DNA of 41,038 nucleotides, taken from assembly GCA_018698135.1 (NCBI GenBank), contig JABINZ010000128.1:1-41038 (forward strand), read 5' to 3'. The notes beneath the pieces are model-generated. The model had not been told where the DNA came from. It made no database searches and saw nothing but the letters and a program-made list of their open reading frames with translations. This document shows positions 3,651 to 16,862 of the stretch, piece after piece. The DNA comes from Bacteroidota bacterium (GTDB lineage Bacteria > Bacteroidota > Bacteroidia > CAILMK01 > JAAYUY01). Positions within the stretch are counted from its first letter, which is position 1. Each line of letters begins with the position of its first letter. A program made the translations under genes and the position numbers.

Positions 3651-5756
3651 CTATTCCTCATAAATTATTTCAGAATACTCGGGCAGTAGACCAATCACGC
3701 GAAATTCTGTGCGCCTGTTTTTCTGCCTTCCTTTAGGATTATCGCTGCCATCGGGATTTTCATTTGGCGCGATGGACTGAGTTTCGCCATATCCCTTAGC
3801 TTGCAATCTTTCCTTGGCAATTCCATTTTTAATGAGATAGTCAACTACACTTTGGGCTCTTCGTTGGCTTAATCTTTCATTATATGAAAGTGCACCTTTG
3901 CTATCGGTATGCGAACTTATTTCTGCAATAATTTTGGGATTATCCTGCATTAAAATAAGAATGGTTGAATCAATAATAGATTTGGCACTATCCGTTAAGT
4001 AGCTTTTGTCGAAAGGATAGTAAATATTTCTGATAACCAATGGCTTCTCGGGTATTTTAATAATATACAAGTCTCGAATTAATGTGTCAGTCTGCGTAAT
4101 TTCATATGTTTCAACTTGCCTTTGGCGACTGAAATAGTCATCTTTTGAAACCCTGATCTTATACTTATTCCCATTTTCTAATTTAAAACTGTAGGCTCCT
4201 TCAAAATCAGTGGTATCACTTTTAATTAAAAACTCAACATTTTCTTCATCGGGACTTATTAGATACAAGCTAACCACTGCTTGAAATGCAGGAACTCCAG
4301 TCATTATATCGGCATCAGGGCTTTCAGAAATCAGATTTTCTATGTATTGAACCTTTGCGGTATCTTCAATTGCAACTACATTTCCTTTTAAAATAATATT
4401 GATAAAATCAGGATAATTGAATGAGTAGATATCATCACAACAGCTTATTTTCTGTAGTATATTGCTTCCTGTACGATTGGACACCAAAAAGCCTTCCGAT
4501 TTATTATCTGGATTCAGCACATAATAAATATCATCGGCACAGGAATTAATTGGATAACCCAAATTAACCGGTTCTTCCCAGCGTTTCAGCTCTCCGGTTG
4601 ATTTAAAAACATCTAGTCCACCAATATTTGTTTTACCATTCGAACTATAATATAATCGATGATTTTCCAGATCGTAAAATGGTGTTGTTTCATCACCTGG
4701 GCTATTGATTTTACCACCCATATTTTTTGGTGCTGAAAAAGCATTTGTTTTGGTGCTAAATACGCTATACCATAAATCCATGCCCCCTTTACCTCCCGGT
4801 CGATCGGAAGCAAAATAGAGCACTTCATAACCTCTTTTTGACTCTATTGCAACGGCAGGTTGTGTGGATGTGTAATACCTCAGATTGATCGGTTTTTCGA
4901 TCATTTTAGGAGATTGCCATTTCCCTTTTTTCTTTTCAGAATAATAAATTGCACAGCTATTTTTGCTGTCACTATTTTGGTTACATACTGTAAAGTAAAA
5001 TCGATTCCCATGCGGGCAAAGCACGCCATTGCCAACATCAGCTCCAGGAATATTGAATGAGTCGCTAATTTCAAATCCTCCTTGCCAGATATCATTGATC
5101 TTTTTGGCATGATAAAACGAACTGCTTATTTCTTTTTCCTTCGTTTGATCATCTAAATACCTAATTACTTCATTTACCCGAACTGATGCAAAAATCATTA
5201 GCGAATCATTCAAGGGAAATGGGGAATAGTCTATATGATCAAAATTTACAGTTTCATTTAATTTGTTGATATGGACATTTAATGGCTTTTCGAGCTGTTC
5301 AAGAGCTAAATCACAGCCATCAATTTCTTTACGTGCAAGTTTACGGTAAAGAGCATTTTCGCCTTTTCCTTTTAGTTTTTTCCGTGCTTTTGTCAAGGTT
5401 TCTTTTGCAAGTTCATACTCACCATTCATTTTTAACATAACACCATAATGAAACAATGATTTAGCATATTTCTTTGGCTTTAAATCATAAGCAATCTTAT
5501 AATATTCTTTGGCTTTCTCATAATCTCGAATTCTTTCGTATAGTTGGGCTAAATGAAAACTAGTATAGGGCCTGTTAGGAGATTGTTGAATATATTTTTC
5601 ATAATTTTCAATGGCGGCATACACATCTCCATACCTTTCATAGAGCAAGGCTTTCTTCTTCAGCTTAGACGGTTTTTCCTGTGCAAATGAAGAAAAAGAC
5701 ATGCATAGAATAATAATTGACAGCCACGCAACAGATATGTTCTTATTAATAATCAA
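3651..5756 (-). CDS. PorE-like TPR/beta-propeller/CRD/OmpA lipoprotein-type T9SS component
   Basis: 701 residues. The start is TTG 5756, because the first ATG lies inside the signal peptide (about 1-25, ending SFAQ). Domains in order: TPR repeats (about 30-130, e.g. GDVYAAIENYEKYI, DYEKAKEYYKIAYDLKP); a PD40/WD40-type propeller (about 170-450, with blades such as YFASDRPGGKGGMDLW and LYYSSNGKTNIGGLDVF); a carboxypeptidase-regulatory-like beta domain (about 450-560); and a C-terminal OmpA domain (about 575-690) with SHTDSKG, YNERLSQRRA and NRRTEF, the peptidoglycan-contact elements. This order and length match PorE, known to link the T9SS to peptidoglycan in Porphyromonas gingivalis. There is no obvious lipobox. 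The gene is 12 bp behind the porP/sprF-like gene and certainly co-transcribed. It could instead be a paralogue dedicated to the neighbouring adhesin. Confidence 0.85.
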   Translation of the reverse strand: MIINKNISVAWLSIIILCMSFSSFAQEKPSKLKKKALLYERYGDVYAAIENYEKYIQQSPNRPYTSFHLAQLYERIRDYEKAKEYYKIAYDLKPKKYAKSLFHYGVMLKMNGEYELAKETLTKARKKLKGKGENALYRKLARKEIDGCDLALEQLEKPLNVHINKLNETVNFDHIDYSPFPLNDSLMIFASVRVNEVIRYLDDQTKEKEISSSFYHAKKINDIWQGGFEISDSFNIPGADVGNGVLCPHGNRFYFTVCNQNSDSKNSCAIYYSEKKKGKWQSPKMIEKPINLRYYTSTQPAVAIESKRGYEVLYFASDRPGGKGGMDLWYSVFSTKTNAFSAPKNMGGKINSPGDETTPFYDLENHRLYYSSNGKTNIGGLDVFKSTGELKRWEEPVNLGYPINSCADDIYYVLNPDNKSEGFLVSNRTGSNILQKISCCDDIYSFNYPDFINIILKGNVVAIEDTAKVQYIENLISESPDADIMTGVPAFQAVVSLYLISPDEENVEFLIKSDTTDFEGAYSFKLENGNKYKIRVSKDDYFSRQRQVETYEITQTDTLIRDLYIIKIPEKPLVIRNIYYPFDKSYLTDSAKSIIDSTILILMQDNPKIIAEISSHTDSKGALSYNERLSQRRAQSVVDYLIKNGIAKERLQAKGYGETQSIAPNENPDGSDNPKGRQKNRRTEFRVIGLLPEYSEIIYEE

Positions 5757-5768
5757 TTGATAATAATA

Positions 5769-6785
5769 TTAAAAGCGTTCGCATGGAATAGATTTCTGAA
5801 ATGCCAACGAACTTATTTTCTTATAAACCAGTGAAAATTCAATTGCCCCCTGATTATGTGTGCTTGTACTCAATTCTGATACATTCAAATCATAGCTTAA
5901 ACCAATATCAAAATGTCTTAATGAGATGCCGGTCTGAATAATTGCAGCATCGAAATTTCTTTTAATTCCATTTCTAGAATATAATCCTCCATATACATGC
6001 TGAAAACCACCCATTGTTTTACCAATTTCATAGGTTAAGCCCATACCTATAATAAGTTCTGATGCCAGTGCATGTTCAGTAAATAGTATGGTTGGTGCAA
6101 TATCCAGTCTGCCTTTCAAATCAAAACGAGCAATTGTGTAATAGGATTTCCTAACCTTCAATTGATTTCCTGTTCCAAAAAAACTTTCTCCCGGTGTGTT
6201 TAAGTGATACAAACTAACACCAACTTCAGGCTTAAAATCCCCAAAGCTACCAGTCCAAAGAATACCTGCATTAATATCTGGATAATAGATTGTTGTTGGA
6301 GAACCTGTATCGGAAGAGGGAAAAGTAGGGTCATAAAAACCGGTGAGTTTATTATATTGATCAGGAAAAGTTAAAGCATTTGCTGAAATATTTTTATTCA
6401 CCATTCCGGCTTGAATGCCAATATGAAATTCTTGTCTTTGAACTAATTTATGATAGGCCAAGTTTAAAAACAATTTATTAACAGCCAATTCAGCATCACC
6501 TGACTTATCGTTTACGAGTAATAAACCAATTCCAAATTTCTCTTTTCGAAGGTAAATTGCTTTATCGAGGGAGATCGCATTTGTGCTATAGGGAATAGGC
6601 ATAGTAAACCATTGAGTACGATATATATCGGCTAATCGAAGTTCACCCTGATAATGACCAGAATTTGCTGGATTAACAACCAATGGAGAAGCATAGAATT
6701 GAGAAAAATGAACATCCTGAGATCGAACACTAAATGCCAATAATGCCAACAAACTGATAGATATGATATGAATTCGGTATCTCAA
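5769..6785 (-). CDS. PorP/SprF family type IX secretion outer-membrane protein
   Basis: 338 residues when started at TTG 6785, giving a clean signal peptide (MRYRIHIISISLLALLAFS, cleaved before QDVHFSQ). No ATG exists in the N-terminal region. A TTG at 6809 is also open, but it lies inside the predicted -7 box, so translation from it is unlikely. The mature N-terminus DVHFSQFYASPLVVNPANSG is the PorP/SprF family signature, and the rest is an alternating beta-barrel pattern. Family members sit in the outer membrane, couple to the T9SS and help deliver or attach type B sorting-domain proteins such as SprB. The gene leads an operon with the PorE-like gene and is divergent from a type B PKD adhesin, its probable client. 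Confidence 0.88.
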   Translation of the reverse strand: MRYRIHIISISLLALLAFSVRSQDVHFSQFYASPLVVNPANSGHYQGELRLADIYRTQWFTMPIPYSTNAISLDKAIYLRKEKFGIGLLLVNDKSGDAELAVNKLFLNLAYHKLVQRQEFHIGIQAGMVNKNISANALTFPDQYNKLTGFYDPTFPSSDTGSPTTIYYPDINAGILWTGSFGDFKPEVGVSLYHLNTPGESFFGTGNQLKVRKSYYTIARFDLKGRLDIAPTILFTEHALASELIIGMGLTYEIGKTMGGFQHVYGGLYSRNGIKRNFDAAIIQTGISLRHFDIGLSYDLNVSELSTSTHNQGAIEFSLVYKKISSLAFQKSIPCERF

Positions 6786-6793
6786 TAATTTAG

Positions 6794-6837
6794 TATATTT
6801 GTTATACAAATATAGATAATCTCAGGCTTTCATCAAT
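6794..6837. promoter_or_regulatory. Overlapping divergent promoter, perfect 8-bp palindrome
   Basis: Positions 6794-6814 read TATATTTG-ttata-CAAATATA, so both strands carry a perfect TAnnTTTG -7 box, 5 nt apart. For the minus strand (porP/sprF-like) an ATTG -33 element lies at 6834-6837, with exactly 19 nt between the boxes. The plus strand (adhesin) has only a weak TTCG at 6773-6776. The symmetry implies that the two promoters exclude each other or share one regulator or polymerase footprint. Confidence 0.65.
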
Positions 6838-6853: not shown

Positions 6854-9800
6854 ATGCAAAATAAAAAAAGTATTTTTTACACAAGAATAGTTATTTCTTG
6901 TATTGTTATTTTGCAAGTTAGTATTGTCCAAGCTCAGCCCATTGCTAAATTTACTTCAGATATCGTTTCCGGATGTAATCCTATTGTTGTTTCATTTACA
7001 GATCAATCAACTGGTGGGCCAACTACTTGGTTTTGGGATTTTGGCAATGGAAACACCTCCACCCTTCAAAATCCACAAGTATCTTATACCGTGAGTGGAA
7101 GCTATACAGTCTCTTTAAAAGCAACAAATTCCAGTGGATCAAATACAATATCAAAAACTGCATATATAACTGTTTTCAAAAACCCTACAGCCAATCTAAC
7201 CGCAACTTCTGCTACAAATGGTTGTGTTCCTTTTACCATTGGTTTTTCTGATCAAAGCATTGAAGGAGATGGTGTAGTATCGAAATGGACATGGGATTTT
7301 GGCGATGGCGGAATTTCAGCTGCTAAAAACCCGACCTATACCTATAGTACATCGGGTGTATATAATGTTTCTTTGCATGTTGTGGATATTAATGGCTGTT
7401 CAGACACACGGGTTTATACAAGCTATATTACTGTTAATTCAAAGCCAAAACCCCAGTTTAGTGTCAACACAAGCACATATTGCAGTATTCCTGCTGCCGT
7501 TACTTTTACAAATTCTTCCACAGGCAATGGAACATTAACATATCGATGGGACTTTGGTGATGGAAACACCGCTAATAGCAAAGACACAACCTATACCTAT
7601 TTAACTTCAGGAACTTATAACGTTAAACTGGTCGTAACTGATCAGAATGGATGTTCAGACTCAATTATTGAAAATAGTTTTGTAAAAATAAATAGTATCA
7701 AAGCTAGTTTTAAACCCGATAACGACTCGATTTGCCCAGGCGTATTGGTTGCTATGAATGATGCATCAAATGGTGCAAATAGTTATTTTTGGAGTTTTGG
7801 TGATGGAAATACAACCACTGTTCCAAACCCAAAGTATATCTATTTTAATCCCGGAACCTATGTTGTTAAGTTAAAGGTTGAAAATACCGGCAATTGCAAG
7901 GATAGCATTAGCAAAACCATATTAGTGGATGATATTGAGGCTGGTTACAGTGCGTTTCCTTTGCAAACATGTCATATTCCATTTGAAGTTGATTTTACAG
8001 ATCTTTCAAAAAACGCAGTCAGTTGGGTATATTATTTTGGCAATGGAGATACTTCTCATAGCCAGAATCCAACCTATAGTTATCAGACAGTAGGGTCACA
8101 CCAAACAAGCCTGGTTGTAAAATCAGCAGCCGGATGTACAGATTCTTTTGCATTTAAAAAACAGGTAAACATCGAACCACCTGTGGCAGAATTCATAGGC
8201 GATACGATGCGTGGTTGTGCCCCATTAACGGTTAATTTTACTGACAAAAGTTTTTCAAACGAGACTATAATCAGTTGGAAATGGTATTTCAGTGATGGCG
8301 ATTCTTCACATCTGCAAAATCCAACACACACATTTTATGATGATACTACATATCAGGCAACATTATTTATTGAAAACGACTCTGGTTGCGTCAGCTTTAC
8401 GTATAAAATAATTGAAGTAGGATTAAAACCTATTATTGATTTTATTGTAATGCCTGATTCAAATTGTGCTCACGACTCAGTTCTATTTGCCGATATGTCA
8501 ACAAATCCAAATGGAAAGCCAAATGATGAATGGCTTTGGACTTTCGGAGATATGATGACAGGATCAGGGGCAAACGTGTACCACATGCATGTAGATACAG
8601 GCTATATGAAAACCATGCTTATAGTTGGCCAAAACGGATGTTATGATACCTTGATTGTTGATAGTTCCAACTATGTATTGGCTCCGGTTTCCATTGTATT
8701 ACCATTCTTTGCTTGTGATTCTCCATTTAATTATACTTTTATTCAAATACCAAAAGGTGTTGATCATTGGGAAATTGACTTTGGCGATGGATTAAAGCTC
8801 GATCATTTAACCAATGACACCTTAACTCACACATATGGAGCATATGGCAATTACAAGGTTAAAACTAAAGCTTACAATGACAGCACAGGATGTACCTGGC
8901 CCAATGAAATTGATGTCAATATAGGTCATCTGGATGCTGATTTTATGTTCTCAGATTCAACTCCTTGTGTAGGAGATAGTATATTATTTGTTTTAAAAAC
9001 AGGTAGTAACTTCAACACATACTGGAAATTTGGAAATGGAAATACCTCATCCGATTACTTGCCCTTATATGCCTATAATAAACCCGGCACCTATCGTGTT
9101 GATCTGTTAGCTATTGATTTTAGCGGTTGCCGAGATAGTGTATCCAAATTTATAACAGTTTCCAGCATCACAGCCGATTATCAGGCTGATAGTTTTATTT
9201 GTGTTCCAGATCAAGTTGTATTTACGGATTTAAGCAGTTCCGATACGACTATTGTTAGTTGGAATTGGCATTTTGGAAATGGGCAATATTCCACCAATCA
9301 AAACCCAACACATAACTATGTACAGAGTGGAACTTTTAGCCCACGTTTAATTGTTGTTAATGCTGCTGGTTGTGCTGACACCATCATGAAAACTGCCAGT
9401 ATTTTTGCAAGCAAACCAACAGCAGGTTTTTATACACTTGATAACTCACTATGTTTACACGATTCTGCCGTATTTGTGAATACCTCAAGTGGAATACTAT
9501 CAGATTATGATTGGACATTTGGAGATGGAAGCAGTTCAAAAGATATTGTTCCTGGGCATATCTATTCAAAAGCAGGGCAATATAGCATTCGCTTAATAGT
9601 TACAGATACTGCAGGGTGTAAGGATACAGCAACTGTTAATAATTATATTCAAGTTGAAGATTCTGTAATTGCGAATTTCTTTGCTGATACTATATTTTCT
9701 AACTGTTACCCCTTGTTGGTAAAATTTTCTGATCAGTCAATAGCCTCAAATATTATCTATTGGGAATGGGATTTTGGAGATAATACAGCCCTTTCTTTTA

Positions 9801-10696
9801 TTCAAAACCCAGCACATAATTATCAGTTGCCGGGCACATATGATGTGCAGTTGAATATTATAACATCTTTTGCCTGTGTGGATACCATTTCTAAAACAAA
9901 ATATATTACGGTAAAAGGCCCACTAGCCGATTTTGAGGTCGATCCAGATACAATTTGCACCTATGAATTTGTTAAATTCACACTTATACAAAAAGAAAAT
10001 GTGAAGTTGTTTGAATGGGATTTTGGCGATGGCTATGTTGAAACCGGTCAGATCGATTCTATCCTTCATACATATTCAAGAGGTGGTGTGTTTTTTCCTA
10101 AGCTTATCTATGAAGATTCAACTGGCACATGTCGTAAATCAGCGGATGATCTTGTTTTTGTTTCACAAGTAATAGCTGATTTTCAACCAAGTGATACCAA
10201 CGGAACTGTTCCTCTGCTTATCGATTTCACAAATTTTTCATCAACAAATGCTATTTCATGGATTTGGAATTTTGGAGAAGGAGCAGATACCATGAGCGAA
10301 GATGCTGCTCATTATTATAAAATGGCAGGAGATTATCTGGTTTCCTTAATCGTTCAAAACGACTTTGGCTGTTTGGATAGTATTACCAAATTAATAGTTA
10401 TTGATCCTCTTGAAGCCTTGGTTGATTTTCCAAGCGCATTTACACCCAATGGGGATGGAAAAAACGATCAGGTTAAAGTTGAAGGCTATGGCGTTCGATT
10501 TAAAGAGTTACTTGGATTTCAGATATTCAACCGTTTTGGGGAGGTTGTTTTTGAAACAAGCGATCCTGAAATTGGATGGGATGGTTATTACAAAGGAAAA
10601 TTACAAAATATGGAAACCTATATTTATCTGGTTACTGTAAAAACATTTGAAGATCAGGTTATTTCAGAAAAAGGATATATTAGTTTGCTTTATTAA
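6854..10696 (+). CDS. Giant PKD-repeat adhesin with T9SS type B sorting domain
   Basis: 1280 residues with a signal peptide (about 1-27, ending VQAQ). It carries 14 PKD-type repeats of roughly 80 residues, recognisable by their W-x-F-G-(D/N)-G cores: WFWDFGNG, WTWDFGDG, YRWDFGDG, YFWSFGDG, YYFGNG, WYFSDG, WTFGDM, IDFGDG, WKFGNG, WHFGNG, WTFGDG, WDFGDN, WDFGDG and WNFGEG. Most repeats also have a conserved Cys early (e.g. GCNPI, GCVPF, GCAPL) and another in a late GC-x-D motif, so intradomain disulphides are plausible. The last 85 or so residues (FTPNGDGKNDQ, FNRFGEVVFE, WDGYYKGK) are the gliding-motility type B C-terminal domain that directs export through T9SS. It is probably a surface adhesin or filament, SprB-like in export but much shorter. 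It shares a palindromic promoter with its likely PorP/SprF partner. Confidence 0.92.
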   Translation: MQNKKSIFYTRIVISCIVILQVSIVQAQPIAKFTSDIVSGCNPIVVSFTDQSTGGPTTWFWDFGNGNTSTLQNPQVSYTVSGSYTVSLKATNSSGSNTISKTAYITVFKNPTANLTATSATNGCVPFTIGFSDQSIEGDGVVSKWTWDFGDGGISAAKNPTYTYSTSGVYNVSLHVVDINGCSDTRVYTSYITVNSKPKPQFSVNTSTYCSIPAAVTFTNSSTGNGTLTYRWDFGDGNTANSKDTTYTYLTSGTYNVKLVVTDQNGCSDSIIENSFVKINSIKASFKPDNDSICPGVLVAMNDASNGANSYFWSFGDGNTTTVPNPKYIYFNPGTYVVKLKVENTGNCKDSISKTILVDDIEAGYSAFPLQTCHIPFEVDFTDLSKNAVSWVYYFGNGDTSHSQNPTYSYQTVGSHQTSLVVKSAAGCTDSFAFKKQVNIEPPVAEFIGDTMRGCAPLTVNFTDKSFSNETIISWKWYFSDGDSSHLQNPTHTFYDDTTYQATLFIENDSGCVSFTYKIIEVGLKPIIDFIVMPDSNCAHDSVLFADMSTNPNGKPNDEWLWTFGDMMTGSGANVYHMHVDTGYMKTMLIVGQNGCYDTLIVDSSNYVLAPVSIVLPFFACDSPFNYTFIQIPKGVDHWEIDFGDGLKLDHLTNDTLTHTYGAYGNYKVKTKAYNDSTGCTWPNEIDVNIGHLDADFMFSDSTPCVGDSILFVLKTGSNFNTYWKFGNGNTSSDYLPLYAYNKPGTYRVDLLAIDFSGCRDSVSKFITVSSITADYQADSFICVPDQVVFTDLSSSDTTIVSWNWHFGNGQYSTNQNPTHNYVQSGTFSPRLIVVNAAGCADTIMKTASIFASKPTAGFYTLDNSLCLHDSAVFVNTSSGILSDYDWTFGDGSSSKDIVPGHIYSKAGQYSIRLIVTDTAGCKDTATVNNYIQVEDSVIANFFADTIFSNCYPLLVKFSDQSIASNIIYWEWDFGDNTALSFIQNPAHNYQLPGTYDVQLNIITSFACVDTISKTKYITVKGPLADFEVDPDTICTYEFVKFTLIQKENVKLFEWDFGDGYVETGQIDSILHTYSRGGVFFPKLIYEDSTGTCRKSADDLVFVSQVIADFQPSDTNGTVPLLIDFTNFSSTNAISWIWNFGEGADTMSEDAAHYYKMAGDYLVSLIVQNDFGCLDSITKLIVIDPLEALVDFPSAFTPNGDGKNDQVKVEGYGVRFKELLGFQIFNRFGEVVFETSDPEIGWDGYYKGKLQNMETYIYLVTVKTFEDQVISEKGYISLLY

Positions 10697-11782: not shown

Positions 11783-11817
11783 AAGCTCCATCTTTTAGTA
11801 GATGGGGCTTTTTTTAT
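11783..11817. terminator. Hairpin terminator between convergent genes
   Basis: AGCTCCATC and GATGGGGCT pair (one G-U) around an 8-nt loop, followed by TTTTTTT on the plus strand. It ends the SRPBCC gene. It also lies directly after the stop of the last GldM-C-like gene, so it could serve both directions. Confidence 0.75.
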
Positions 11818-12476
11818 TCTTTTACTGTCAAAACGATAGCGCCAGGTAATTGCTTGCTCCCACCTTCTGGTACTTCAACATAAATGTTTGCGCAAATAAT
11901 TATATCTCCAACTTTGGGCTCCTTGAGCATGTTAAGAGCTGATTTATGCAACTTTGCACTACTACATGGATAAAATGATGCTGGTCCTTCCTTAGGTTGA
12001 TAAACGAATTTATATTTCGAGATTTTATAGTTTAAATCTTTCGGGCCTTCTAGGTTAACGGTTAATTCAGTCACATTTTTAACATTGTCGATACTAAGCT
12101 CCCCCTTTGACTCTCCACCAAAAGTTACAGTTGGACCTGAAATGTTTTTAATAGGGTATTTTACTCGACAAATAATAATATTTTTGTCATTTTTGACTTT
12201 GAAAAAAGTAATTATTGCCACTTTTTTCTGGTTCTCCTTCGTCTTGGGAATATGAATGACAAAAAGCCCTTTCTCAAATGTGACTTTTCCCTGATTGCAA
12301 ATGACTTTTACATTTGCTGCATTGATTTTCTTGTTTTTGAGTTCCAGCTTGTTGTTCCATCCAACATAAAGCGCATCTCCGCTATGATTAATAATTCTGG
12401 ACTTTCCCTTAAACTGTGCATTAGCACTTGAAAAAACCAGAGAAAAGGCGATTAAAGCAAATAGTATCTTTTTCAT
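11814..12476 (-). CDS. Secreted GldM C-terminal-like protein, paralogue 4
   Basis: 220 residues with a signal peptide (about 1-20, ending ANAQ). It is the most divergent of four tandem paralogues. The first beta domain (about 30-115) keeps ALYVGWNNKLEL, in the place of NVLYxGxxNPIxIxV in GldM, and FEKGLFVIHIP. The second (about 118-220) keeps VTFGGESKGELSI, KISKYKFVYQPKEGPASFYPC, PKVGDIIICANIYV and LPGAIVLTV, the order seen in the last periplasmic domain of GldM. The N-terminal membrane helix and helical domain of real GldM are absent, so it cannot be a motor subunit. It has Cys in both domains. It is the last gene of the run, 11 bp after paralogue 3. The GldM assignment comes from motif resemblance, not a profile search. 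Confidence 0.7.
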   Translation of the reverse strand: MKKILFALIAFSLVFSSANAQFKGKSRIINHSGDALYVGWNNKLELKNKKINAANVKVICNQGKVTFEKGLFVIHIPKTKENQKKVAIITFFKVKNDKNIIICRVKYPIKNISGPTVTFGGESKGELSIDNVKNVTELTVNLEGPKDLNYKISKYKFVYQPKEGPASFYPCSSAKLHKSALNMLKEPKVGDIIICANIYVEVPEGGSKQLPGAIVLTVKE

Positions 12477-12487
12477 AATTGTAATTT

Positions 12488-13159
12488 TTATTCGACAACT
12501 GATAACACAATTGAGCCGGGAAGTTGCCTGTTTCCTTTGGTTGCAATATCTGCAAATATTCTACTGACAATAATCACTGATCCGGCTTCAAGCCCATAAA
12601 TAACTTCCTTGACTTCTTGTGACAATTGAGTTCCTTTATGCTGGTAGGATGTACTTGTATTATCTGTCTTTTGTATAATGATTTCAAATGATGTTACTTG
12701 AAAAAGGATATCTCTATAATAGAACCAATCCATGTCCACATATACTGAATCCATATCCTTCAATTTGGCTTGTCTGATTTCTCCACCAGCATAGCCATTC
12801 AAAACAGGTGTTGGATTTGGAACCCGGAGAATATTAAACTCTTTTTTCCCAGCAGGAGTTAACTTTAAGTCTTCTTTAATAAATACAGAAATGGTCAGTT
12901 TCCAAATTTTCTGTCTCGAATCTTTTACAGACAAAAAATACTGTCCATCTTTTTTTGTTAGCAGTCCAAAATCTGTTTTCAGTTCAATTTGATCAAACTG
13001 ATAGCCCGGAACTGATACATTGATGGGGTTTTCCAAACCAATATAAACAATGCTAACAGCTTCTGCCGCAATTACTGCTTTTGGTGCTAAAGCTGGTTGG
13101 GCAAAAATTACAGAAGAAAACAGAATGAATGTGAGTAAGGCAAGAAATAACTTTTTCAT
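12488..13159 (-). CDS. Secreted GldM C-terminal-like protein, paralogue 3
   Basis: 223 residues with a signal peptide (about 1-20, ending IFAQ). The D3-like part (about 37-115) has VYIGLENPINVSVPG, then GLLTKKDGQYFLSVKD and FNILRVPNPTPVLNG, all close to the GldM pattern (xYxGxxNPxxxxVxG ... F-x-V/I-x-x-I/V-P-x-P ... G). The D4-like part (about 118-223) has GGEIRQAKL, VTSFEIIIQ, YGLEAGSVIIVSRIFAD and RQLPGSIVLSV. In GldM and PorM these domains project from the motor toward the GldK-GldN ring; here they form a free periplasmic or exported protein. A 99-bp gap separates this gene from paralogue 2, so a second promoter is possible, though I see no exact TAnnTTTG box there. Confidence 0.72.
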   Translation of the reverse strand: MKKLFLALLTFILFSSVIFAQPALAPKAVIAAEAVSIVYIGLENPINVSVPGYQFDQIELKTDFGLLTKKDGQYFLSVKDSRQKIWKLTISVFIKEDLKLTPAGKKEFNILRVPNPTPVLNGYAGGEIRQAKLKDMDSVYVDMDWFYYRDILFQVTSFEIIIQKTDNTSTSYQHKGTQLSQEVKEVIYGLEAGSVIIVSRIFADIATKGNRQLPGSIVLSVVE

Positions 13160-13258: not shown

Positions 13259-13933
13259 TCATTCTACGGTTAATACAATAGCTCCTGGCAATTGTTTTGT
13301 TGAGTTGTTATTATAATGCGCATAAATGTTAGAGAATATCAAAATATCCCCTTTTTTAACATTTGAGAGTACTGCAATAATTTCTTCTGATATTGCAGCG
13401 CTATCACAAGGAATAAACTGGGCAAGGCCTTCAACAGGTTGAATAACAAATTTAAATTTATCAACGGTATAGGTTATTCCATCCAAAACATAATCAGGTT
13501 TAATAGTGATTTCTTTTACTGTTTTAACTTCCTCGGGGCTTATTGTTCCTCCACTTTTTGAACCAAAACAAGGATATGGGTGCAATACTTTTTTAATTTT
13601 AAAAGAGCTATTTCCTGCAAAATAAAAACTGTCGTTTATATTTACATAAACACTTAATACAGCCTCTCTAACCTTCCCTCTTGTATCTTTAACTTTAAGA
13701 ATATATTGGCCATTCTCTCCTGTCAATGTTCCTTGATTAGTTTTCACTTTTATCTGATCATTTGAATATCCTGGAACACTGACTGACAAAGTATTATCAA
13801 GGCCGAGATAAACTGCATTCATTTTAGAAGCAGAAACTACACAACTATAACTTACTGAGGAATCCAGTTCCTGAGCATAACTATTTCCGATAATTAAAGC
13901 AGTAAGGACAATATAACAAACCAGAGATCTCAT
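13259..13933 (-). CDS. Secreted GldM C-terminal-like protein, paralogue 2
   Basis: 224 residues from ATG 13933, which overlaps the stop of paralogue 1 as ATGA and gives a proper signal peptide (MRSLVCYIVLTALIIGNSYAQ). The longer open frame reaching 13996 adds 21 residues of no signal character and overlaps the upstream gene, so I reject it. GldM-like marks: AVYLGLDNTLSVSVPGYSND, GTLTGENGQYILKVKD, FKIKKVLHPYPCFGSKSGGTIS, YTVDKFKFVIQPVEG, VKKGDILIFSNIYA and LPGAIVLTVE. The overlap implies translational coupling and an equal dose of paralogues 1 and 2, possibly a heteromer. Confidence 0.72.
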   Translation of the reverse strand: MRSLVCYIVLTALIIGNSYAQELDSSVSYSCVVSASKMNAVYLGLDNTLSVSVPGYSNDQIKVKTNQGTLTGENGQYILKVKDTRGKVREAVLSVYVNINDSFYFAGNSSFKIKKVLHPYPCFGSKSGGTISPEEVKTVKEITIKPDYVLDGITYTVDKFKFVIQPVEGLAQFIPCDSAAISEEIIAVLSNVKKGDILIFSNIYAHYNNNSTKQLPGAIVLTVE

Positions 13934-14592
13934 CGCACTTCTATAATATGTGGCTCGCGAATAAGTCTGCTTGGCAACCCCGGGGCCGAATACCAAACAT
14001 TGGCAATTATGTATTTATCGCCTCTTTTAGGATTGTCAAATGATTTTTTCATTTCATCGGTAAGCATGTGACTTTTGCTTTTGTATATGCTTGCAAACCC
14101 ATTTTTAGGTTGATAAATAAATTCAAACTTATCTACCATAAAACTTAGATCAAATGGGAAATCTTCTAAACGAAGGGCAACAAAATTTCTTATTCGAATT
14201 TCTCCAGAATATGGATATGTTGAGCCAAAATAAATTGTAGGCTTTGGAATTGGCCTTATCCTGAAATACTTTGAGCACACATATTTAATATTGTTTGCTG
14301 TTGTCACATAAACCTTGATTTCAACTTTAGAAAAAACCTGACCATCATCTTTTATATGAAGCGAATATTCCCCTTTTTCTCCTTTTAATATTCCTATGGA
14401 CGATTCTGCAATGATATGCTCAGGAAGAACTCCCATTACAGCTATTGAAATAGGATTATCGATATCCAGATAAACTAAATTAAGCAGTTTGACTGAAATT
14501 ACAGGTGGTGGAATGAAAAACGAATCTGCAGTTTGTGCATGAGATGGACTAAACAAGAATAGAATTAAAACAAAAGCCAGGTAGTTTTTCAC
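13930..14592 (-). CDS. Secreted GldM C-terminal-like protein, paralogue 1
   Basis: 220 residues from a GTG start at 14592 with a signal peptide (about 1-19, ending SHAQ). It is the first gene of the minus-strand run. It shows the best GldM resemblance of the four: LVYLDIDNPISIAVMGV, GILKGEKGEYSLHIKDDG, YFRIRPIPKPTIYFG, then LRLEDFPFDLSFMVDKFEF, matching the GldM pattern in which LxDFDFDLxxxVxxF opens the last domain, and PKRGDKYIIANVWY. Its end (REPHIIEVR) departs from the LPGxIVLxV ending shared by the other three. It is divergent from the GldN-like genes over a 110-bp region. Role inferred: periplasmic partner of GldN-type proteins. Confidence 0.74.
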   Translation of the reverse strand: MKNYLAFVLILFLFSPSHAQTADSFFIPPPVISVKLLNLVYLDIDNPISIAVMGVLPEHIIAESSIGILKGEKGEYSLHIKDDGQVFSKVEIKVYVTTANNIKYVCSKYFRIRPIPKPTIYFGSTYPYSGEIRIRNFVALRLEDFPFDLSFMVDKFEFIYQPKNGFASIYKSKSHMLTDEMKKSFDNPKRGDKYIIANVWYSAPGLPSRLIREPHIIEVR

Positions 14593-14702
14593 GAATCCAG
14601 ATTTATTTTGATGCTTTTATAACGTTTGTTTTGTGTTTTATTATATATTTATTGGATTAAAATATACCATTTTTTCATATCAAGCGTTTAGAAAAATAAA
14701 AT

Positions 14703-15758
14703 ATGTTCCGAAAATTCGCTTTTCTACTTATACTCCATTTGTTTATTAATCAGCTTACTGCCCAGGAATTAACATACAGAAAAATTAATTTGAATGATTA
14801 TCTCGGCCAAAAAACAGTTGATGAACTCAATACACTTATTTATCATGAAGCCTTGTCAGGAAAAATAAAGGCCTACAAAACGGACACGCTTGTCAATAGT
14901 TATACGATCGAAGAACTTAATAGCTTGGGTGAATGGACAGATTGGATAGAAGTTTGTCCAGAGCCAAAATATCCGAATGATTGCTATGATTCAACAATAG
15001 TCAATGAGTTTAGGACAGATGATTTAATTGGAAACCTCATTGCCGAGAAATGGGCATTTGATTTAAAGAAAAAACAAATATTTGTTGAATACCACTCTTT
15101 TGCACTTATGCATAATTTAACCTATGCAGGATATGCTTTAGGAGAACAACCATTGTTCTGGATAGATTTAGATGACCTGGCTAAAATATTGAATCCTGAT
15201 GAGCTCAAACTGTTCATGGATGCATTGTTTAATGAAACACTTTCCTTTTACAATGATTTTGACGAAAATAGCGCAATAACAAAAAGACTCCTTTCGCCTA
15301 ATGACTATATTGGCAAATTTACTTTTCAGGAATATAATTCAAGCCTTTACTCTGCAGCACTTAACCAAGATATTCCTTCCTATAAAACTATTGCTCTTGA
15401 TTCTGCGTATGATATAAAAGCGCTGAAAAACAGGGGTAGCAAGGAATACGACAGATTTTATCCCGATCCTGAATATCCAGATTATGGATTTGACACTTTA
15501 TATACTAAATTTTGGAATCCAAAAGAAATAGAATCATTTATAATTTCTGAGCAGATTATCTTTGATAAGATAAGGTTTTCTTATAAATACAACATTCGTT
15601 CTATTGGATTACTGTATGTAACTCCAGATATACAAATTGATATTTGTTATTTCGCTTATACTGATTTGAAAAAAGCACTTAAAAAGTATGAAATAAGCGG
15701 ACTCACAAAAGCTATTTACAATGCAACTGTTGATCAGCATAAATTTCATAAAGACTAA
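14703..15758 (+). CDS. Secreted protein with two GldN/PorN-like repeats, paralogue A
   Basis: 351 residues with a signal peptide (about 1-20, ending LTAQ). Repeat 1 (about 26-180) follows GldN order: LSGKIKAYKT (compare the GxITAYxxxD stretch of GldN), a Cys-containing loop (VCPEPKYPNDC), IAEKWAFDLKKKQ (compare IKExWxFDKxxS), and EQPLFWIDLDDLAKIL with FWI at 152-154 (compare PLFWxYFPxxRxxL). Repeat 2 (about 197-345) repeats the layout (DYIGKFTFQEYNSSLYSAALNQDIPSYKT ... SEQIIFDKIRFSY ... YFAYTDLKKAL) but has lost the FW pair. GldN works in a periplasmic ring with GldK and contacts GldM; a double-repeat secreted version is unusual. The gene is paired with paralogue B 15 bp downstream. Assignment is by motif order, not a profile search. 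Confidence 0.68.
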   Translation: MFRKFAFLLILHLFINQLTAQELTYRKINLNDYLGQKTVDELNTLIYHEALSGKIKAYKTDTLVNSYTIEELNSLGEWTDWIEVCPEPKYPNDCYDSTIVNEFRTDDLIGNLIAEKWAFDLKKKQIFVEYHSFALMHNLTYAGYALGEQPLFWIDLDDLAKILNPDELKLFMDALFNETLSFYNDFDENSAITKRLLSPNDYIGKFTFQEYNSSLYSAALNQDIPSYKTIALDSAYDIKALKNRGSKEYDRFYPDPEYPDYGFDTLYTKFWNPKEIESFIISEQIIFDKIRFSYKYNIRSIGLLYVTPDIQIDICYFAYTDLKKALKKYEISGLTKAIYNATVDQHKFHKD

Positions 15759-15773
15759 TTCTGAAAATAAAGT

Positions 15774-16862
15774 ATGCACATTCATAAATTAAAATACAGC
15801 TTCATTTTTAAGGCAATTGTCCTCCAGCTTGTTTTAGTTTTTTTATGCAATAACCTTGTTGCCCAGCAACTAAGCTCACGAAAAATAAACTTAGACGATT
15901 TTCTTGGTCGAAAAACAATAGATGAATTCAACACACGTATTTATTATGCTGCTATTTCAGGAAAAATTAATGCATACAAAACCGAAAAATTAATCGAAAC
16001 CTATTCACCAGAAGAACGAAAGGGTGCTGGTGGAGTTGAATGCATTGTCGAAATTTGTCCTGATCAAGAAAATCCAGATTATTGCTACGATTCAATCCTG
16101 CTTAATCCTTTTAGCACAGAACAGATTCGTGGAAGCTACATTGCAGAACAATGGTGGTTGAATACAAAAAAGAATCAATTTGGAGCTAATTTTTATGCTT
16201 TTGCTCCTGCTTGTAACCTTATAATTGCTGGACAGAATTTGGGGACAAAACCACTATTCTGGATAAATTTAAGAGAGCTCAACAAAGTACTCAACAATTC
16301 TGAAATAATACTATTCAAGCAAGCCATTTTTAAGGAAACCCAATATGTTTACTCCGATTCAAAAGTTTTAAGTTCTAGAACGAAAAGAAAGATTGATTTA
16401 GAAGATTATATTGGAACAAACACCCTTTTCGACCAGAACTTGCTGATTTACAGCGCAGCATTCAAGCTAAAATGTCCAGCATATACTTCCGTTGATCTCG
16501 ATTCTGTTTATACTGCAATGGAGTTATTTTATCGGGGAACGGAAGACGTTTATGGATATCGTATTCCAGAACACCTCAATGATGAAATTGATTCGACATT
16601 AGTCACTACAAATCATAATGCTGAATTAAAACTAAATTCAATATCAGAAACTTTGCATTTTAATAAACAAGACTTTTCTTATACATCAGAGCTTAATGCT
16701 CTGGCATTACGAGAAAAATTATATACCAAAGGAGAAATTGATTTATTCTGGGTTTCGTATAAAGATTTGAAAAAAGTGCTTTCAAAACTCGAAATTGAAT
16801 TACTTACACACGCTATTTATAAAGCCACTGTTGATCAGCATCATATGTATAAAAGAGACTGA
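15774..16862 (+). CDS. Secreted protein with two GldN/PorN-like repeats, paralogue B
   Basis: 362 residues with a signal peptide (about 1-30, ending NLVAQ). It is clearly a paralogue of the preceding gene: both mature proteins begin with RKINLxDxLGxKT and end with ATVDQH. Repeat 1 (about 36-190) has ISGKINAYKT, IAEQWWLNTKKNQ, FAPACNLIIAG and TKPLFWINLRELNKVL. Repeat 2 (about 205-350) has DYIGTNTLFDQNLLIYSAA and EIDLFWVSYKDLKKVL, keeping the FW pair at 325-326 that paralogue A lost. Two Cys in the first-repeat loop (ICPDQENPDYC) are shared with paralogue A and could form a disulphide. It is the last gene of the plus-strand operon. Function unknown beyond the GldN resemblance. Confidence 0.68.
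   Translation: MHIHKLKYSFIFKAIVLQLVLVFLCNNLVAQQLSSRKINLDDFLGRKTIDEFNTRIYYAAISGKINAYKTEKLIETYSPEERKGAGGVECIVEICPDQENPDYCYDSILLNPFSTEQIRGSYIAEQWWLNTKKNQFGANFYAFAPACNLIIAGQNLGTKPLFWINLRELNKVLNNSEIILFKQAIFKETQYVYSDSKVLSSRTKRKIDLEDYIGTNTLFDQNLLIYSAAFKLKCPAYTSVDLDSVYTAMELFYRGTEDVYGYRIPEHLNDEIDSTLVTTNHNAELKLNSISETLHFNKQDFSYTSELNALALREKLYTKGEIDLFWVSYKDLKKVLSKLEIELLTHAIYKATVDQHHMYKRD

Follow-up and report, generated by a model that had tools for sequence, protein, structure and literature searches.

What could two secreted proteins built from doubled GldN domains do away from the gldKLM operon, and next to four genes for detached tips of the motor protein GldM? This question is raised by the contig JABINZ010000128.1 of a Bacteroidota bacterium, whose 41,038 nucleotides were analysed as a whole and are here called the window. 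The original prediction, made from the DNA sequence, described two adjacent genes for secreted proteins (A and B), each consisting of a duplicated GldN/PorN-like repeat. Both open reading frames are present at the positions it gave, and comprise the following features:

14703..15758, + strand: protein A, 351 amino acids, putative signal sequence and two GldN-core repeats (open reading frame, PF19841)
14775..15281, + strand: repeat 1 of A (A1), residues 25-193, PLFWI and Cys pair retained (PF19841, half alignment)
15282..15755, + strand: repeat 2 of A (A2), residues 194-351, ICYF in place of LFW (PF19841, marginal; canonical GldN profile)
14955..14984, + strand: codons Cys85 to Cys94 of A (profile alignment)
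15774..16862, + strand: protein B, 362 amino acids, putative signal sequence and two GldN-core repeats, 43% identity to A (open reading frame, PF19841)
15876..16382, + strand: repeat 1 of B (B1), residues 35-203 (PF19841, half alignment, model, similarity to 7PVH)
16383..16859, + strand: repeat 2 of B (B2), residues 204-362, LFW retained (PF19841, half alignment, model, similarity to 7PVH)
16056..16085, + strand: codons Cys95 to Cys104 of B, both ends of a predicted hairpin loop (alignment, model)

GldN-family cores in proteins A and B

The Pfam profile PF19841 (GldN) matches A with 64.8 bits and B with 56.4 bits, in two stretches per protein, at a gathering cut-off of 23 bits. In a genome-wide search all four single repeats score above this value (A1 42.0, B1 34.3, B2 25.8 and A2 23.1 bits). 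A2 exceeds it by only 0.1 bit and is marginal, yet scores 40.9 bits when the profile is built from 37 canonical GldN rows. The halves also align with each other far better than shuffled sequences do: 46 of 168 positions are identical between A1 and A2 (z 20.7) and 45 of 157 between B1 and B2 (z 23.1), while z is 70.8 for A1-B1 and 35.6 for A2-B2, and none of these four scores was reached by any of 1000 shuffles. An hhalign comparison of the two first halves with the two second halves gave a probability of 99.0 and an E-value of 2.7e-18 over 150 columns. The internal duplication is thus confirmed. Since first half is closest to first half and second to second, it is, as judged from these alignments, most likely older than the duplication that gave rise to the genes of A and B.

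The motif layout described earlier was largely recovered. The first halves read GKIKAYKT or GKINAYKT, IAEKW or IAEQW, and PLFWI, the second halves DYIG, SAA, and DLKKAL or DLKKVL; the DLxKxL motif expected in the first halves does not hold for B, whose first repeat reads ELNKVL. As had been noticed, LFW is kept in both halves of B (residues 161 and 324), and in A only at residue 151, with ICYF at the second site.

Structure prediction with AlphaFold2 for full-length B (36 alignment rows) gave a predicted local distance difference test score (pLDDT) of 88-97 in most ten-residue blocks of repeat 1, while residues 197-290 stayed below 50 and most of repeat 2 was poor, so that the model does not give the relative orientation of the two halves. 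With the model of B1, Foldseek placed five PorN chains on top (7pvh_B, E 4.4e-4), and VIA-align superposed 136 residues on 7pvh_B (Z 9.4, root-mean-square deviation 3.5; best non-PorN row Z 4.1). B2 was modelled alone from its own alignment of 38 rows with a mean pLDDT of 88.1, a predicted template modelling score of 0.80 and the main elements in the same order. Again 7pvh_B was leading (Z 9.6, 127 residues, root-mean-square deviation 3.4; next non-PorN row Z 2.4). Both halves of B are therefore predicted to fold like PorN; as the alignments behind the models include GldN relatives, this expresses confidence in the fold and is not an independent proof of homology. A phmmer search of the PDB with A alone missed PorN (best E 0.59, unrelated signal-recognition proteins), which was reached from 36 GldN rows used as a profile (9mzu_B, E 1.4e-11).

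The original prediction was to fall if the halves lacked both a GldN/PorN profile match and structural similarity to each other. Family membership was found by sequence for both halves of A and B and by predicted fold for both halves of B, whose models lead to the same PorN chain. We are nearly certain that A and B each consist of two GldN-family cores. They are members of the GldN-domain family and not GldN equivalogs: TIGR03523, the GldN/PorN equivalog model, has a cut-off of 85.9 bits, B reaches 21 bits and A has no match up to E 10.

Read by eye, both proteins start with what looks like a Sec-type signal sequence, and no lipobox is visible in either. The C-terminal sorting domain of substrates of the type IX secretion system (T9SS) has no match in A or B in Pfam and NCBIfam up to E 10.

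The first repeats share a Cys pair in a CX8C loop (C85/C94 in A, C95/C104 in B). In the model of B the two residues end a loop between strands 88-94 and 105-111, a placement that would be expected of an intramolecular staple. The pair had been taken to suggest an oxidised, periplasmic or external location. It fits the oxidised periplasm and does not place the proteins outside the cell. Nor does it mark the tandem form, because it is also present in the canonical GldN of this genome (C128/C137) and of a same-genus genome (G002), though in no other of the 37 canonical rows, and is thus a trait of the genus.

Missing ring anchors and relatives of the repeats

When aligned to the profile of 37 canonical GldN rows (two of which are second copies of the same gene), the repeats cover only the middle of its 273 positions: A1 75-203, A2 78-203, B1 76-203 and B2 54-203. 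Neither A, B nor any of the 11 single-copy orphan GldN rows has the READ-type motif of the N-terminal arm or the ExDxW tail at the C-terminus, while each of the two occurs in 36 of the 37 canonical rows. After the Trp site of LFW the repeats continue for 35-40 residues, compared with 85 (counted by hand) in canonical GldN, and are thus about 45 shorter. The counterpart of the PorN arm before about residue 48 is also absent. The core ends near PorN residue 207 in the sequence alignment and the range of the structural aligner extends to 262, so the two differ over which residues within 205-262 are kept.

The missing parts have known partners. In PMC12421860, contacts that bind PorN to PorK or brace it there come from the N-terminal helix (residues 25-37), from the W47 loop and from the C-terminal helix together with its distal loop (249-283); region 9 (E235-N236) locks PorN to PorN, and ring assembly relies mainly on PorK contacts. 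The numbering of that paper was set on the PorN stretch via W154 and checked at W47, D220, R223 and A241. The repeats of A and B are GldN cores without ring anchors.

In comparison to GldN/PorN (PF19841, TIGR03523; PDB 7PVH, 9MYJ, 9MZU, 9OTS) A and B have the core fold, the motif order in each repeat and secretion in common, and the CX8C loop with the GldN of their own genome. They differ in having two cores per chain and neither arm nor tail, in lying outside the gldKLM operon and in scoring below the TIGR03523 cut-off. The domain duplication is real and well supported, and the tandem armless form differs from known GldN/PorN. GldO of Flavobacterium johnsoniae we take to be a full-length single-domain protein. 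PMC9127263 describes GldO as a GldN paralogue adjoining gldN and partly redundant with GldN; it is, like A and B, the product of a second GldN-family gene in its genome, whereas A and B are tandem, armless and encoded away from gldN. Neither tandem GldN proteins nor stand-alone GldM tips were found in those parts of the open-licence PMC literature that the search covered, which is weak evidence of absence.

The genome of the window (G000, 97% complete) has a GldN of its own, since canonical gldK, gldL, gldM and gldN lie together on contig C195. It furthermore encodes a GldJ-like lipoprotein (398.5 bits, cut-off 458.2), a GldK-like paralogue on C121 (L153 4387-5433; TIGR03525 177.9 bits, cut-off 350; N-terminal part seemingly in another frame), and two orphan single-core GldN proteins, one on C120 and one on C73. 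A third carrier of the PorP/SprF family with a single Cys near its C-terminus (LICPGF; L154 4753-5736) adjoins the GldJ-like gene. The C73 protein is a lipoprotein adjoining hflX, and such an hflX-linked single-core GldN lipoprotein occurs in all four genomes of the family (G000-G003; L008, L060, L061, L062). These orphans are truncated to the core like the repeats of A and B, and differ in having one core and a lipobox-like Cys. A1 and B1 group with them (tree support 100/99) in a tree from which A2, B2, six repeats of the f3 family of tandems and two orphan rows were left out. The shared CX8C loop might indicate descent from canonical gldN; the tree gives the grouping above instead, and a constraint of A1 and B1 to the canonical GldN of the genus was not rejected (approximately unbiased test, p-AU 0.081). 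Gene conversion or convergence would also fit the shared loop. In a separate tree that includes A2 and B2 and from which six rows were dropped (o_G007b, t_G198, t_G330 and three others, either second copies or additional canonical rows), these two repeats form long branches (1.48 and 1.7) that meet, and their placement is unsure.

Neighbouring genes and distribution

The original prediction made no mention of four stand-alone GldM tip genes next door. These and the T9SS type B set beyond them comprise the following features:

14593..14702, no strand: intergenic region of 110 bp between the divergent genes M4 and A (open reading frame positions)
13930..14592, - strand: M4, secreted stand-alone GldM domains 3-4, divergent from A (GldM_4th 34.7, GldM_3rd 31.6 bits)
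13259..13933, - strand: M3, secreted stand-alone GldM domains 3-4, ATG at 13933 favoured over TTG at 13996 (Pfam; PorM 6ey5 E 8.7e-9)
12488..13159, - strand: M2, secreted stand-alone GldM domains 3-4 (Pfam)
11814..12476, - strand: M1, secreted stand-alone GldM C-terminal protein with an orthologue in G002 (Pfam)
6854..10696, + strand: PKD-like protein (adhesin), 1280 amino acids, T9SS type B sorting domain (TIGR04131 55.2 bits, cut-off 35)
5769..6809, - strand: PorP/SprF-family carrier of the type B set, possible client (TIGR03519 170.1 bits, cut-off 90.55)
3651-5756, - strand: PorE-like TPR/PD40/OmpA protein (about half of the NCBIfam cut-offs: CHU_0125_OmpA 320/620, T9SS_PorE 309/600)

M1-M4 are proteins of 220-224 amino acids with signal sequences and GldM domains 3 and/or 4 according to Pfam; M1 has domain 4 only (25.4 bits, cut-off 24.6). 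They correspond to GldM/PorM domains 3-4 (PF21602, PF12080; PDB 6EY5, 7CMG) and match TIGR03517 at positions 319-519 of 524. Unlike GldM/PorM they contain neither the membrane helix nor domains 1-2, and with 47-71 bits they stay below the equivalog cut-off of 180. In a tree M1-M4 and two stand-alone tips from C125 are placed next to domains 3-4 of their own family's GldM (wider clade 94/96; inside 83/62; several long branches). Further detached tips in the genome lie on C125 (L022 2643-3362, 3474-4181) and, as a short form, on C155 (L025 1108-1542). At E 1e-3 seven of its eight GldM_4th matches lie in reading frames shorter than 260 amino acids; each of the 11 remaining genomes of the order contains at most three frames of this kind, some of them truncated at the end of a contig.

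Between the adhesin and M1 lies a polyketide-cyclase/GyrI-like gene, and beyond the adhesin follow the carrier and the PorE-like protein, by its scores a paralogue and not the canonical protein. A conserved Cys stands in the C-terminal tail of the carrier (SIPCERF; TIPCERY in G002, L089 3616-4683). In PMC12635249, Cys tails tie SprF and PorG to GldK.

The same-genus genome G002 (92% complete) was compared at this locus. The PorE-like protein (75% identity), PorP-like protein (70%), adhesin (71%), cyclase (75%) and M1 (45%) are found there in conserved order, followed by the contig end, while the urocanase (86%) and SUI1-like (75%) genes lie on another contig. A profile search of G002 revealed no tandem GldN and, besides M1, no stand-alone GldM tip except one in a frame of 152 amino acids. 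Both contig ends (L089 10460-10702, L103 5548-6709) fall within an apparent transposase gene, which we take to be IS256-like, and overlap exactly over 139 bases. That fits a single insertion element between M1 and SUI1; the overlap could instead come from a multi-copy element. Hence M2-M4, A and B were either gained in the genome of the window or lost in G002. The GC content from M1 to B is 0.332 and that of the rest 0.358; values this low occur in 5 of 144 windows of five kb. This signal is weak and horizontal gain is not claimed.

Because the class-wide Pfam search gave the strongest matches only, a tandem profile was used to count weak or tandem GldN proteins. It was built from B, A and the G009 protein, whose own matches are by construction. 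At E 1e-8 it matches in 46 of 395 genomes of the class, nearly always by one half. Matches over both halves were obtained for A, B and the proteins of G009 and G008; a protein of 330 amino acids in G010 is related to that of G009. Thus four of the 395 genomes sampled encode tandem GldN proteins, all of them among the 12 of the window's order. The tandem proteins of G008-G010 start like lipoproteins. In the three tandems of the f3 family the first repeat alone is weak (independent E-values 0.0013, 0.13 and 4); they were counted as tandems on the basis of the tandem profile and their mutual alignment as well. Two of them are the public metagenome-assembled genome records JACPUW010000035.1 (groundwater Bacteroidetes) and WGNN01000008.1, the only records found by a contig scan with these two tandems; a contig scan with A and B found no relative. 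The GldN proteins of G330 and G198 (347 and 386 amino acids) were not counted, as their second half is not significant.

At the tandem loci of G008, G009 and G010 (L134, L135, L140) a divergent gene for 519-547 amino acids lies upstream in all three, encoding a flavin adenine dinucleotide-dependent protein in G010, and in G008 and G009 the tandem gene stands beside a similar-looking gene (with TPR repeats in G009). G009 also contains on C44 (L096 2973-5097) a second GldL-like (178 amino acids) and GldM-like (525 amino acids) pair, possibly a second motor, followed by two proteins of about 775 amino acids.

A possible role at the motor-track contact

Three published observations connect the two gene families. 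PorM domain 4 contacts PorN, as indicated by a cross-link S460-A241 (PMC12421860); AlphaFold 3 places the PorM tip, at weak confidence and mostly via one domain 4, in the cleft that two adjacent PorN copies form (PMC12635249); and the periplasmic part of GldM binds GldK, GldN and GldO in two-hybrid tests (PMC8986121). Given the known contact of PorM domain 4 with PorN, a two-core GldN beside soluble domain 3-4 proteins is most simply read as acting there. As the explanation of the whole locus we tentatively prefer lineage-specific, periplasmic GldM-tip and GldN-core paralogues that act where the motor of type IX secretion or gliding touches its track.

The mechanism, on which we are still more tentative, would be that of an anchor-free set. 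The products of the two divergent gene sets (A/B and M1-M4) may act together in the periplasm. The tandem would represent two joined GldN cores that mimic adjacent GldN subunits of the track, and these cores would be offered to domain 4 tips of the GldM type, whether those of M1-M4 or those of the motor itself. Because both anchors are missing, the membrane helix of GldM and the arms that dock to GldK, the set would be a soluble factor. It might be a coupler, a competitor or a brake at the contact of the GldLM motor with the GldKN track, and not a ring subunit, with the adjacent type B adhesin and its PorP/SprF carrier as a plausible client by position. The soluble adaptor considered in the original prediction is possible and comes close to this. 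It is doubtful, though conceivable, that the detached GldM tips and double GldN cores form a periplasmic clutch or brake which sets the number of engaged GldLM motors or steers them to one adhesin.

Several points weigh against a role at the motor-track contact. In PMC12421860 the cross-link to PorM involves A241 of PorN, and the stretch that contains this residue finds no clear counterpart in the repeats; the PorM-binding loops 4 and 6 named there could not be placed in them. GldM tips and GldN cores were seen adjacent in this window only: no GldN adjoins the C125 tips, and no GldM tips adjoin the orphan and tandem GldN loci that were read elsewhere. Furthermore, G002 has the adhesin, the carrier and M1 but not A, B and M2-M4, so that the set is not needed by that adhesin.

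The same neighbourhood might instead make A and B dedicated accessories of the type B set, linking its carrier alone to the moving track, and not factors with a general effect on the motor. The order of PorE-like protein, PorP-like protein, adhesin, cyclase and M1 kept in G002 would suit this, as would the Cys tail of the carrier, which resembles those of SprF and PorG (PMC12635249). We consider it doubtful, however, as G002 retains carrier and adhesin without A and B, the cyclase gene separates adhesin and M1, and in the stretches read around the tandem GldN genes of three further genomes nothing matches PorP, PorE or an adhesin. A lineage-specific amplification of paralogues without settled function, the copies being neutral or decaying, could account for the fast divergence of the second repeats, the loss of LFW from A2 and the lack of A and B in the genus-mate; this is unlikely, in so far as four repeats persist in two intact open reading frames with signal sequences and a related tandem lipoprotein is retained at 54% identity in two other genomes. 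A substitution of the tandem for two GldN units, on GldK or the GldK-like paralogue, which would alter ring size or stiffness and is close to the differently sized ring of the original prediction, has the two cores per chain and the presence of the GldK-like and GldJ-like proteins in its favour but is very unlikely, because the repeats lack the N-terminal arm and C-terminal EHDLW tail that dock PorN to PorK, on whose contacts ring assembly mainly relies (PMC12421860), the genes lie outside the gldKLMN cluster with its own gldN, and the GldK-like frame seems broken at its start.

The way in which the tip of the GldLM motor takes hold of the GldKN track and drives it has yet to be explained in the field, and A, B and M1-M4 are small natural pieces of this contact. 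They suggest a small, unstudied accessory set built from parts of the machine. If A/B and the tips bind each other, they could be tractable as a complex for structural studies and could serve as natural means to inhibit or regulate the motor.
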